Assembly (NCBI GenBank): GCA_022425485.1
Contig: JAKMFL010000047.1
Span: 1-47,552 of the forward strand
Direction of reading: 5' to 3'
Source: Alphaproteobacteria bacterium
Lineage (GTDB): Bacteria > Pseudomonadota > Alphaproteobacteria > Puniceispirillales > Puniceispirillaceae
Length of the DNA: 47,552 nucleotides
Shown here: piece by piece, positions 35,184 through 47,010 of the stretch
Numbering within the stretch: the stretch's first letter is position 1
Layout of the letters: the number at the start of each line of letters is the position of its first letter
Position numbers and translations under genes: made by a program
The notes under the pieces: model-generated
What the model was told of the DNA's origin: nothing
The model's database searches: none
Seen by the model: the letters and a program-made list of their open reading frames with translations, nothing else

Positions 35184-36092
35184 ATGAGCAAAAACGCCCT
35201 TATCCCTTCTCTGACCCCCGAAGGCAGCCTGTCTCGCTATATGGAGCAAATCCGCCAGTTTCCGATGCTGAAAGCAGATGAGGAATATATGCTGGCACGC
35301 GCCTTTAATGAGCGCGGCGATGTAGAAGCGGCGCACAAGCTGGTGACTAGCCATCTGCGTTTGGTGGCAAAGATTGCGATGGGCTATCGCGGCTATGGCC
35401 TGCCTGTGGCGGATTTAATATCTGAGGGCAATCTGGGCATGATGCATGCGGTGAAGAAGTTTGATCCGGAACGCGGCTTTCGCCTTGCTACCTATGCGAT
35501 GTGGTGGATAAAGGCCTCTATTCAGGAATATGTTCTGCGCAGCTGGTCTTTGGTGAAAATCGGCACGACGGCCTCACAAAAAAAGCTGTTTTTTAATCTG
35601 CGCCGTATCAAAGGCCGGATTGGCGCGATAGATAGGGGCGATTTAAGCCCGCAAGATGTCAGCGATATCGCGGATGAGCTTAATGTGCCAGAAGCTGATG
35701 TGATTTCCATGAATCAGCGCATGGCGGGGGGCGATCATTCCCTAAACACCCCTGTTTCAGCCGAAGGGTTGGATAATGGCGGCGAATGGCTGGATTGGCT
35801 GGAGGATGAACGCCCAGACCAAGAAAGCAGCTTTGCCGATACAGAAGAGCTTAGCAAGCGCCAAAACCTGATGGTGGACGCGATGCAAGAATTAAACCCG
35901 CGCGAGGTGCGCATTATAGAGGCACGCCGCCTCTCAGAGCCGCCTTTGACCCTAGAGGCGCTAGCAGATGAATTTTCGGTTAGCCGAGAGCGTATCCGCC
36001 AGATAGAGGTGCGTGCGTTTGAAAAATTATCCAAAGCCGTGCTGGAAAAAGCAGACGCGCTAAAGCTGCTGCCACAACAAGAACAGCATTAG
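35184..36092 (+). CDS. rpoH: RNA polymerase heat-shock sigma factor RpoH (sigma 32)
   Basis: RpoH directs transcription of heat-shock genes. Region 2 has GNLGMMHAVKKFDPERGFRLATYAMWW, written here in part as DLISEGNLG and FDPERGFRLATYA. The RpoH box that distinguishes it from other sigma factors is seen as QKKLFFNLRR near residue 133. Region 4 carries the helix-turn-helix EALADEFSVSRERIRQIEVRA. The 302-aa length is normal. AAAGGAG at 35166-35172 precedes the ATG. Several rpoH paralogues occur in many alphaproteobacteria; only one is visible here. Confidence 0.95.
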   Translation: MSKNALIPSLTPEGSLSRYMEQIRQFPMLKADEEYMLARAFNERGDVEAAHKLVTSHLRLVAKIAMGYRGYGLPVADLISEGNLGMMHAVKKFDPERGFRLATYAMWWIKASIQEYVLRSWSLVKIGTTASQKKLFFNLRRIKGRIGAIDRGDLSPQDVSDIADELNVPEADVISMNQRMAGGDHSLNTPVSAEGLDNGGEWLDWLEDERPDQESSFADTEELSKRQNLMVDAMQELNPREVRIIEARRLSEPPLTLEALADEFSVSRERIRQIEVRAFEKLSKAVLEKADALKLLPQQEQH

Positions 36093-36115: not shown

Positions 36116-36208
36116 GCTTCCCGCTAGATTTCTATAACCCCCTTTACCTTTTTTTAAGATTTACTGATCTATACTCCCCTAATCAAACCGATTGAGGGAA
36201 AAAATAAA

Positions 36209-36581
36209 ATGAAAATTCAACCTACTTGGATTAGCAAGCCTACTCATTATTACGAGCTGTGCGTCAATTACAAACGATGCTCACGTACCTGTTGCACTCT
36301 CTTTCAGTAACGGTAGCAATGGAACTTGTGATATTGAAAATAAAAGGTTTTCAGCAAAAATAGACATCCCAAGCACACCGATGGTACGACGGTCAGACGA
36401 TAATCTAAGACTGAGATGTGAAACAGTTGACGGGCGAAAAGTAACTACTTTTATTCCTAGCACCATAGGGGCTAAATTAATTTTAAGTGCTGTCTTTTTA
36501 GACTTTGGGATCACCGATTCTATAACCGATAAGCACCGCGAATATCCAGCTAGTTTCGTTATTCCAATCCCTTCGGAATAA
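36209..36581 (+). pseudogene. Small lipoprotein gene with apparent one-base frameshift at its start
   Basis: ATG 36209 has GAGGGA (36194-36199) upstream but leads to a 33-codon dead end. One frame over, immediately after that ATG, the sequence encodes FNLLGLASLLIITSCASIT, a lipoprotein signal with lipobox ITSC. About 100 further residues follow, ending IPIPSE at TAA 36579-36581. Removing one A from the AAAA at 36212-36215 would join them into a 123-aa lipoprotein (MKFNLLG...). The mature part (two Cys, an MVRRSDDNLRLRCETVDG segment) resembles small lipoproteins often misnamed translation initiation factor 2. It is either a true pseudogene or a sequencing error. Confidence 0.65.
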
Positions 36582-36605
36582 AATGTAACAAATTCAGAAC
36601 CACCC

Positions 36606-37898
36606 CTACCCTTTAAACGGGTCGCGGACGAGGATGGTGTCATCACGCTCTGGGCTGGTGGATAACAGGGCGACAGGCAGGCCTGTTAATTCCTCCACAC
36701 GGCGGATATATTTCACCGCATTGGCGGGCAATTCTGCCCAAGAACGGGCGCCATAGGTGGTTTCTGACCAGCCCGGCATTTCTTCATAAATCGGGGTACA
36801 TTTGGCCTGATCCGCGGCATTTGATGGAAAATAATCCAGCTTTTGGCCATCACATTCATAGCCGGTGCAGATTTTCAATACCTCAAACCCGTCCAGCACA
36901 TCCAGCTTGGTCAGCGCCATGCCCGTAATCCCCGCAGTTAGGCCAGCTTGGCGCACCATTACCGCATCAAACCAGCCGCAACGCCGCTTGCGCCCCGTAA
37001 CCGTGCCAAATTCACGGCCCCGCTCGCCCATGCGCGACCCATCATCCCCGAAATCTTCGCTGGGAAACGGGCCAGAGCCTACACGCGTGGTATAGGCCTT
37101 GGTAATGCCGAGGGTGAATTCCACCGAAGACGGGCCAGTACCCGCCCCTGTGGCCGCTTGCCCTGCGACCGTGTTAGAGGAGGTCACAAACGGATAGGTG
37201 CCATGATCGATATCCAGCATCACGCCTTGCGCCCCTTCAAACAAAATCGTCTGGCGGGCATCTTGGGCAGCGGCTAGCACCTGCCAGCTGCGCCCGGCAA
37301 AGCTTAACAGCTCTTCTGCCATGCCCATTAATTGGGTGGCCATTTCATCTGCCTGCACCGGCGCACTGCCTGCGGCTTCTAGCCAGACATTATGATGGGC
37401 TGCCAGCGCCGCTAGCCGTTCTGCCAGTAATTCAGGATTGCGCAAATCAGACAGCCGCACCCCGCGCCGCGCTACCTTGTCTTCATAGGCAGGGCCAATG
37501 CCGCGCCCGGTCGTGCCAATCTTACCTGCCCCGCGGCGTGCTTCACGCGCTTGGTCAACTTCTACATGCACAGGCAGGATAAGGCTTACGCTCTCTGAGA
37601 CAATTAAATTATCTGGGCTGACCGCCACCCCTTGCCCGCGCAAGGTTTCAATTTCCCGCAGCAACGCAACCGGGTCTACCACAACGCCATTGCCAATGAC
37701 CGATTTTTTGCCCTTGCGCACAATCCCCGAAGGCAGCAAAGACAGCTTATATTCAACCCCATCAATAACCAATGTATGCCCAGCATTATGACCGCCCTGA
37801 AAGCGCACAACCATATCGGCGCGTTCCGACAGCCAATCGACGATTTTACCCTTGCCTTCATCCCCCCACTGGGAGCCAATTACCGCCACATTTGACAT
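36606..37898 (-). CDS. purA: Adenylosuccinate synthetase PurA
   Basis: PurA joins IMP and aspartate using GTP in AMP synthesis. The N-terminal P-loop [16 protein letters not shown] and catalytic GGHNAGHTL are clear. [14 protein letters not shown], the IMP-site [18 protein letters not shown] and [12 protein letters not shown] also match. ATG 37898 (430 aa) gives the standard start and has AAGAGG 6 nt upstream. The longer open frame upstream is Arg-rich and unlike the family. It lies 70 bases after hisZ on the same strand. Confidence 0.97.
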
Positions 37899-44635: not shown

Positions 44636-45415
44636 ATGTTGGAAAAACAGCTTACTTCTACGCCAGAAAACATTCCCTTTTCATCAATTTTAAAGGGTCA
44701 AATAATCCATGGTGACTGCTTAAAAGTCATGAAAGCACTACCAGCAGAGTCTTTCAAATGCATAGTTACTTCACCTCCATACAATATCAAAAATAGTACA
44801 GGTAATGGGTTAAAGAATGGCAGTGGAGGCAAGTGGCCTAAAGCCGCTTTAATAGAGGGGTATGAGAATCACAAAGATACTTTGCCTCACAAAGATTATG
44901 TATCGTGGCAACGCGAATGCTTGCACGAAATGATGAGGCTTCTTAAGCCTGATGGAGCAATCTTTTATAATCATAAATGGCGGGTGCAAAACGGTTTACT
45001 ACAGGATAGATCGGATATTGTAGAAGGATTTCCGGTAAGACAAATTCTAATTTGGCATAGGGCTGGGGGTATAAATTTTAATCCAGGTTATTTCTTACCT
45101 AATTACGAAGTTATTTATTTAATCACTAAGCCAGAATTCCGTTTGGCACCAAAGGCGAATGCACTTGGCTGCATCTGGCGGATAAATCAGGAAAATAGTA
45201 ATCCTCATCCAGCCCCGTTCCCGGTAGAATTGGCTTCTCGCTGTATAGAGTCAGTTGGCGAAGGCCCCATTCTTGACCCCTTTATGGGTTCAGGCACAAC
45301 TGCGGTAGCCGCAGAACAGGAAGGCCTTGAATGGCTAGGCATTGAGAACTCCAAAGAATACGCCGCCATGGCTGAAGCGCGGTTGATTAAAACCGCTAAA
45401 ATCAAAAGGCAATGA
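44636..45415 (+). CDS. Type II DNA methyltransferase, beta class
   Basis: This amino-methyltransferase (259 aa) protects DNA from its partner endonuclease. The catalytic motif IV TSPPYN is at residues 45-50 and the SAM-binding motif I DPFMGSGTTAVAA at 214-226. The order catalytic-then-SAM is that of the beta class. SPPY is commonest in N4-cytosine enzymes but also occurs in some N6-adenine ones. The partner is MvaI/BcnI-like, a family whose known systems use N4-cytosine methylation, so N4mC is my inference. The target sequence cannot be read from the gene. Its stop overlaps the endonuclease start (ATGA). Confidence 0.88.
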   Translation: MLEKQLTSTPENIPFSSILKGQIIHGDCLKVMKALPAESFKCIVTSPPYNIKNSTGNGLKNGSGGKWPKAALIEGYENHKDTLPHKDYVSWQRECLHEMMRLLKPDGAIFYNHKWRVQNGLLQDRSDIVEGFPVRQILIWHRAGGINFNPGYFLPNYEVIYLITKPEFRLAPKANALGCIWRINQENSNPHPAPFPVELASRCIESVGEGPILDPFMGSGTTAVAAEQEGLEWLGIENSKEYAAMAEARLIKTAKIKRQ

Positions 45416-46164
45416 CGCTCTCAGATGCGGAGTTACGAGTTCGGATTAATGATGTTTTAGAAGCTGGATGGATAAAAATTCCTGATGAATTTGGCTATCG
45501 TGGAACGGGTGCGCCCGGCAAGATGCTGGAAGAATTGCTCGATATAAAAGGGGGCAATCGCGATGAACCGGACACAGGCAAATGGGAAATAAAATTCCAC
45601 TCGGGATCCTCGCTTCTAACATTATTTCACCTTGAAGGTATGCCCAAAGGACATCTGCACCCAATTGTCAAAAAGTTTGGCTGGCAAAACAGGGACGGAC
45701 GGCTAAGTTTTCGTCATACTGTGCATGGTTCTGTGACAGCACGCGGCTTTTATGTTGAAAATGACAAATCTAAAATTATCATCCGGAACAAAACAGAACC
45801 AAATGAAGAGCTTGCCTATTGGATGCATGACAGGCTGATTAATGCTTTTGCTTATAAATTTAGAAGATTGGTCCTGGTAAGCGGGCGGAAACATAATGGC
45901 TCCGTTCGTTATTAGTCTGCCGTCTTCTATACAGAGCCAAAAACAACACAATTTTTAACAGCTATTCAAAATGGCTATGTTGCTATTGACTTTGACGTCC
46001 GCGAAAAAGGGGAAGGAAAATTACGTAATCACGGCACAAAATTTCGGATAAATTCAAAACATTTGGATTGGCTTTATCACAAAAAAAACGGATGGGCCAA
46101 ACAGAACAGTAACTTCCATTATACAGTCCTATTTCTTTGTGGCCCATCTAAGCACGATCCTTAA
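45412..46164 (+). pseudogene. MvaI/BcnI-family restriction endonuclease interrupted by an in-frame TAG
   Basis: The frame reads 167 codons, a TAG at 45913-45915, then 82 more codons to TAA at 46162-46164. The total of 250 codons is close to MvaI and BcnI (about 240). The front part has GTGAPGKMLEELLDI and WEIKFHSGSSLLTLFH, with D54-x4-E59-x-K61 in the spacing of the MvaI active site. KKFGWQNRDGRLSFRHT follows. The part past the stop keeps family features (IDFDVRE and LRNHGTKFRI). It is either inactivated by one nonsense change, read through, or a sequencing error. It overlaps the methyltransferase by four bases. Confidence 0.8.
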
Positions 46165-46221: not shown

Positions 46222-47010
46222 TTATTTATTGTTTCCCTCAATGAAGGAAATTCGCTTCACCGGCTTACCTTCATCTGAGACACCCTCCAACATATCATTT
46301 AATGCTTTAACGATTATTTGAAGCCGCCTATCATCTAGTTCTCCCGTATATGAAACAATAAAACGTTCATCAGGAACCCGATAGCTAAATGACCTATCAA
46401 TCAAAATATTCCAACCCTCTTTTACTCTAATCTGAGTGATTTTTTCATCTACAGAATTGTCACTCAGTTCAGCAGAACTTGTTTCTACTTCTTCGCCAAA
46501 GTTAGCTGGTTCATCTGGTAAACCTTCCTCAATTTTGGCAAATTGACAATTTGCAATAAAATTCTTCGCAACCCTGTCAGCGGTTTCTTGATTAAATGGG
46601 GGGGTATGCTTCACTTGGAGGTAACTTGAAAGCGTTTCCATGGCACTATCAGAACCAAATTGCTCATATAGACTCTTAAATACGCCTGGGTTAAGCGAAA
46701 ATTCTTGCAAAAGCTCAAATTTTCTTTCTTCATTTATATCTCCGCCGATTACCGCCTCTTTCGCCTCTTTGGATATCTTATACTCACCTTTTCCAGACTT
46801 AGTAAGAAGGCCATAATATCCCAAACCAGCAAGCTTTCGGACAGCCGCACCGGAACTTGAGCCGATGGCCTTGAAAAACTGTTCTTTGTTAAATGTGGCA
46901 TTCTGAAGTCCCACGTTCTTAAGCATTGAGATAATATTTAGTGATTGTTGCAAATCTAAATATGGCGCCCGTGGCGAGACATTCTGCTTTTTCAATGGTT
47001 CATTAGACAT
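46222..47010 (-). CDS. Uncharacterised protein with predicted N-terminal winged-helix domain
   Basis: The 262-residue product begins with a region that looks like a winged helix: FNKEQFFKAIGSSSGAAV then KLAGLGYYGLLTKSGKGEY, the typical layout of recognition helix and wing. A helical middle follows (VFKSLYEQFG, ADRVAKNFIANCQFAKI), then an acidic linker near residues 165-185 and a short beta-rich tail (RFIVSYTGELDDRRLQIIV). Similar N-terminal modules occur in uncharacterised bacterial proteins. AAAGGA precedes the ATG. It converges with the endonuclease gene, and base composition is A+T-rich like the cassette. A DNA-binding role is inference. Confidence 0.7.
   Translation of the reverse strand: MSNEPLKKQNVSPRAPYLDLQQSLNIISMLKNVGLQNATFNKEQFFKAIGSSSGAAVRKLAGLGYYGLLTKSGKGEYKISKEAKEAVIGGDINEERKFELLQEFSLNPGVFKSLYEQFGSDSAMETLSSYLQVKHTPPFNQETADRVAKNFIANCQFAKIEEGLPDEPANFGEEVETSSAELSDNSVDEKITQIRVKEGWNILIDRSFSYRVPDERFIVSYTGELDDRRLQIIVKALNDMLEGVSDEGKPVKRISFIEGNNK

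Follow-up and report, generated by a model that had tools for sequence, protein, structure and literature searches.

One of the closest described parallels to the locus considered here is the inactivation of inlA in Listeria through its 5' poly(A) tract: a shift in the run of A that follows the start codon cuts a surface protein short within a few residues; in the portion of that study drawn upon here (PMC2831843), the inlA run is of 6–7 A and polymorphic between strains, whereas the run in our case is of 4 A. The same portion, which concerns another bacterium and a reporter in one gene, gives the rates of Orsi et al. as ~5.5e-7 for A6 to A7 and ~3.9e-8 for A7 to A6, and for an A2GA4 tract no deletion event at all (below ~3e-10). 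A second and more general parallel is the recent frameshift pseudogene of an acquired gene, with which the locus shares a single lesion, an otherwise conserved frame, a sporadic distribution, an atypical base composition and a variable site; no tested feature stands clearly against this likeness, the lesion here being one seen in the assembly. A third parallel might be struck with the PEGA-like small lipoproteins, since the AlphaFold model of our protein (mean pLDDT 85.3) is likewise that of a lipoprotein with a small beta-rich domain, but a Pfam PEGA match is found in 0 of 38 family members and the protein itself matched nothing.

The locus lies within a stretch of 47,552 nucleotides (the window, i.e., the whole of the DNA analysed) and probably records the recent loss of a horizontally acquired accessory lipoprotein gene, an event ordinary in kind. 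On this account, a stand-alone lipoprotein gene would have been acquired horizontally by a probable SAR116-type marine alphaproteobacterium, into a gap between two convergent housekeeping genes, and a net one-base shift just behind its start codon would recently have abolished it. It would be a mostly clean example of the small accessory genes that come and go in marine bacteria.

The start region and the frame break

The start region reads GAGGGA at 36194–36199 on the plus strand, which presumably served as the ribosome-binding site, followed by nine bases, an ATG at 36209–36211 and an AAAA run at 36212–36215, the net one-base shift falling within this run or close to it. The ATG, presumably the former start codon, is now out of frame, opening 33 codons that end at a stop at 36308–36310. 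The lipoprotein frame itself (P0001) occupies 36213–36578 on the same strand, with 122 open codons leading to a TAA at 36579–36581; it codes for a charged start (lysine) and a hydrophobic stretch, together judged by eye to be a signal peptide, then for a lipobox, ITSC, whose Cys codon is at 36258–36260, and for 106 residues beyond it that form the conserved mature part. Upstream, this frame is closed by a TGA at 36210–36212 that overlaps the ATG, and its earliest in-frame ATG, GTG or TTG is at 36381, past the lipobox. In the assembly, the coding frame is disconnected from its start, as in a pseudogene. Ribosomes starting at the ATG would make a 33-residue peptide and stop, and no lipoprotein would be exported.

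An earlier note on this DNA had claimed a lipoprotein gene disrupted by a single extra A right after a start codon that stands one frame off. The relative position of the ATG, the frame and the 33-codon stop bears out the displaced start, and the ribosome-binding site, ATG, signal peptide, lipobox and open frame, along with the family matches described below, uphold the disrupted gene. Of the third element, what stands is the shift within the first codons and not its assignment to one extra base: the searches gave no closely related orthologue, still intact, with which the window copy could be aligned, so the event cannot be assigned to one particular base. What the sequence shows is a reading frame displaced by a net one base within the first few codons.

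The lipoprotein family and its distribution

Relatives of P0001 are found at 44 loci in genome_contigs, with identities of up to 70% over matches of at least 100 residues (two short matches are higher), and at four places in relatives' genomes besides the window's own; because it is matched so often, the frame is more than a chance open frame. The distribution is sporadic: a P0001 match is found in 4 of 41 genomes, own included, when the own genome and those of the genus, family and order are searched, and a family profile run over 136 genomes of the order matches 10 of them, with 11 copies in all and one in the window's own genome. Six plasmid records of Rhodovulum and Cereibacter and one IMG/VR contig (L062) also carry the family. 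Its records are assigned to Pseudomonadota, Verrucomicrobiota, Planctomycetota and others, many of them being metagenome bins for which single assignments may be wrong.

At 34 of the 44 loci, the gene is intact: an in-frame start precedes the lipobox Cys by 13–32 residues, and the frame then stays open as far as its end (a script identified 33 of them, and L007, whose sequence missed the script's motif, was added by eye). The lipobox Cys is invariant in all 38 aligned sequences, and the invariant NKR, R.SDD.L and D.HR.Y positions of the family alignment (A2) are present in the window copy. Searches for a known domain or function were negative throughout: P0001 matched nothing in Pfam, NCBIfam, PHROGs or PADLOC; Pfam over the 38 members gave only stray weak matches, the best at E 0.016, in one or two members each; and a PDB search with the family profile returned a single match at E 0.29. 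The AlphaFold model found no PDB fold match at E<=0.001, and its fold matches among viral models are weak, the best (1.7e-3) being to an unnamed one and a PEGA-named one being reached at E 0.27. A full-text literature search with consensus peptides of the family found no paper, and the word lipoprotein is absent from an account of SAR116 genome features (PMC8547437). The family is a real one, but it is unnamed in the libraries searched. Being spread over phyla, highly conserved in its mature part and unnamed, it makes a reasonable target for functional work.

A phage origin was considered and rejected: at E<=0.01, none of 50,697 phage records matched, the IMG/VR contig is a single one, and there was no PADLOC match. 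Gene neighbourhoods point to no partner: among the neighbour families of 48 loci (up to three ORFs per side), none is common to more than three loci, and the analysis of partner genes is thus uninformative. Individual arrangements can nonetheless be described. In one metagenome-assembled genome, a family copy forms the in-frame continuation of a long upstream frame, which by eye resembles an outer-membrane transport protein (L041:4519-6342), and the same genome has a stand-alone copy (L042). On two Rhodovulum plasmids, the lipoprotein gene is directly downstream of a large autotransporter-barrel gene (L065:1631-6348 and L066:1763-6348).

A variable gap and the origin of the gene

The lipoprotein gene fills the gap between two convergent and intact genes, which from their sequences, rather than a family search, we take to be an rpoH-type sigma factor gene (35184–36092, plus strand) on the left and purA, for adenylosuccinate synthase (36609–37898, minus strand), on the right. 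In G001, a genome of the window's own genus that is the nearest by RpoH (97% identical) and hereafter the sister genome, the gap holds a different lipoprotein gene (132 aa), preceded by a near-identical flank and followed by the same end of purA. This second lipoprotein (L051:2562-2957) has no Pfam or NCBIfam match and, of 61 genomes in the family, 3 carry it. In G007, a BrnT/BrnA toxin-antitoxin pair (by Pfam) is found in the gap; in four further members of the genus, G003–G006, the gap is empty, and in G002 the contig ends inside rpoH. A survey of 30 loci, taken of the 46 genomes with a match at the threshold used, found purA close by in 26, the window included; in 22 of these the gap is empty (9–76 nt between match ends) and in four it is filled (495–723 nt), namely in the window, G001, G007 and L096. 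Thus, the cargo of this gap differs in close relatives and, in the window, is broken, the compared neighbours being intact.

The shared upstream flank, TACCTTTTTTTAAGATTTACTGATCTATACT (36145–36175, plus strand), is a possible promoter; the sister genome, in which it precedes a different gene, shares 29 of its 31 bases, and a sigma-70 scan did not report it. With 3 mismatches allowed, it has one match in G000, one in G001 and 0 in 6 other genomes of the genus, and because it matches only once in each of the two it is not a dispersed element. These single matches, the presence of weak repeats only, and an Rfam search around the lipoprotein gene that matched no element, speak against insertion as a repeat-borne cassette. 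A general repeat search around the gene, made with the attC-type imperfect inverted repeat of an integron gene cassette in view, found only arms 529 nt apart and a 12-nt direct repeat (11/12 identical) at the frame's start and stop, 36203–36214 and 36577–36588, which could be due to chance or be an insertion trace.

The base composition of the lipoprotein gene sets it apart, with a G+C of 40% and a GC3 of 0.32 against 0.40–0.62 in 36 neighbours. In the family tree, the window copy pairs with one whose record is titled Micavibrio (support 96/98), and neither of the included copies from G001 (L008, L005) is its sister. Given the sporadic family, the plasmid records, the base composition, the variable gap and the tree sister, the gene was probably acquired horizontally.

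Age of the break and its competing explanations

Among 33 relatives, 30 alignment columns are invariant, and the window copy keeps every one of them; both this test and the simulation based on it exclude the rows that diverge most, which are L005, L039, L040 and L042. When random changes were made neutrally to the sister sequence, all 30 columns were kept in 8.3%, 0.65% and 0.05% of runs after 10, 20 and 30 changes, respectively; the window copy differs from that sequence at 104 of 321 sites. Such low survival, set against 104 differences, means that almost all of the divergence arose under constraint and, therefore, that the break is either recent or not real. Two further figures complicate this picture. 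The window branch has a length of 0.85 in the tree against ~0 for its sister, and the derived changes are nonsynonymous in 32 of 48 cases on the former and in 7 of 19 on the latter (P 0.03 by Fisher's test). This excess of amino-acid changes hints at some older relaxation, and not only the recent break, but synonymous sites are saturated. In a leave-one-out profile comparison, the window copy scores 29th of 34, a low rank that still falls inside the spread of the intact copies, and dN/dS is unusable because nearly all dS values are saturated.

The first alternative to recent loss is that the shift is an error of sequencing or assembly and that the gene is intact in the organism. The 30 conserved columns of the mature part, the single lesion found in the frame and an assembly in 90 contigs all favour it, and a gene that is in truth intact would show the same conservation of the remaining frame. 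Against it stands the quality of the surroundings: each of the 36 window genes chosen for comparison gives a single alignment, covering at least 90%, with its counterpart in the sister genome, and there is no frame break in 42.6 kb (the comparison took in non-overlapping ORFs of at least 300 nt and pairs above 60% identity). This comparison alone could miss breaks that shorten a window ORF; in the stricter reverse comparison, 34 of 36 sister-genome genes match the window unbroken over at least 90%, and the exceptions are explained, one reaching 89% and the other being cut by the window's end. Frame errors are thus rare around the lipoprotein gene. By the rule of three, at most ~0.026 errors are expected in a gene of 373 bases, before allowing for the fact that this gene was selected for being broken. 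Another accessory gene of the window, moreover, carries a lesion of a different type, a stop. An error is accordingly unlikely, though it keeps some real weight, and under the preferred reading of recent loss the shift would be present in the living population, where loss of the gene would have been tolerated or favoured.

Breakage is not confined to the window. Eight of the 44 loci are broken or without their 5' part (L011, L034, L043, L044, L045, L047, L048, L049), two of which, L044 and L047, are close to contig ends, and two more are unclear, one being the copy fused in frame to an upstream frame (L041) and the other near a contig end (L046). L011 has a stop just behind the lipobox, with its close relative L008 intact, and L043 has lost its start and carries a frame shift elsewhere in the gene, with its relative L007 intact; these are independent breaks. 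Within the order, 3 of the 11 copies are damaged, namely that of the window with its off-frame start, that of G005 with a stop, and that of G058, which matches only from profile position 37; a further copy (G091) is cut by a contig end. It might be proposed from this that the lipoprotein is a mobile, conditionally useful surface protein repeatedly switched off by mutation under selection, e.g., from phages or predators, such that breakage is adaptive, but we regard this as rather improbable.

That the protein is still made by recoding, i.e., by a change of frame during initiation or immediately afterwards, or from a non-standard start such as ATT, would account for the preservation of the whole mature frame, but is very improbable: 34 of 44 relatives start in frame, and hence there is no off-frame start conserved across the family that would support it; neither a known slippery heptamer (by eye) nor an Rfam element is found at the site; and a start at one of the in-frame ATT codons would lose the signal peptide, at whose end these codons are placed. 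Phase variation, whereby changes in A-run length turn the lipoprotein on and off as the earlier note had suggested, would suit a run that follows the start codon immediately, a position in which any shift shuts the gene off completely, and the enrichment of poly(A) tracts near the 5' ends of prokaryotic genes (in the portion of PMC2831843 drawn upon), but it is most improbable, as the run is an A4 only and no hypermutable repeat, such runs are commonplace (678 homopolymer runs of at least 4 in the 36 compared genes, 42 of them of at least 6, as row sums), the A2GA4 tract of the reporter gave no deletions, and the breaks in two close relatives, L011 and L043, are elsewhere in the gene.

The second interrupted gene of the window belongs to a restriction-modification pair (44636–46161, plus strand) that the sister genome lacks in its syntenic stretch. 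Its N6/N4 DNA methylase covers its profile, and its endonuclease, of the MvaI/BcnI family, is cut by an in-frame TAG at 45913–45915; the 82 codons behind this TAG (45916–46161) match the remaining part of the endonuclease profile (E 3.3e-9). Beside the pair, in an AT-rich stretch, a frame of 262 aa with no Pfam match runs on the minus strand at 46225–47010.
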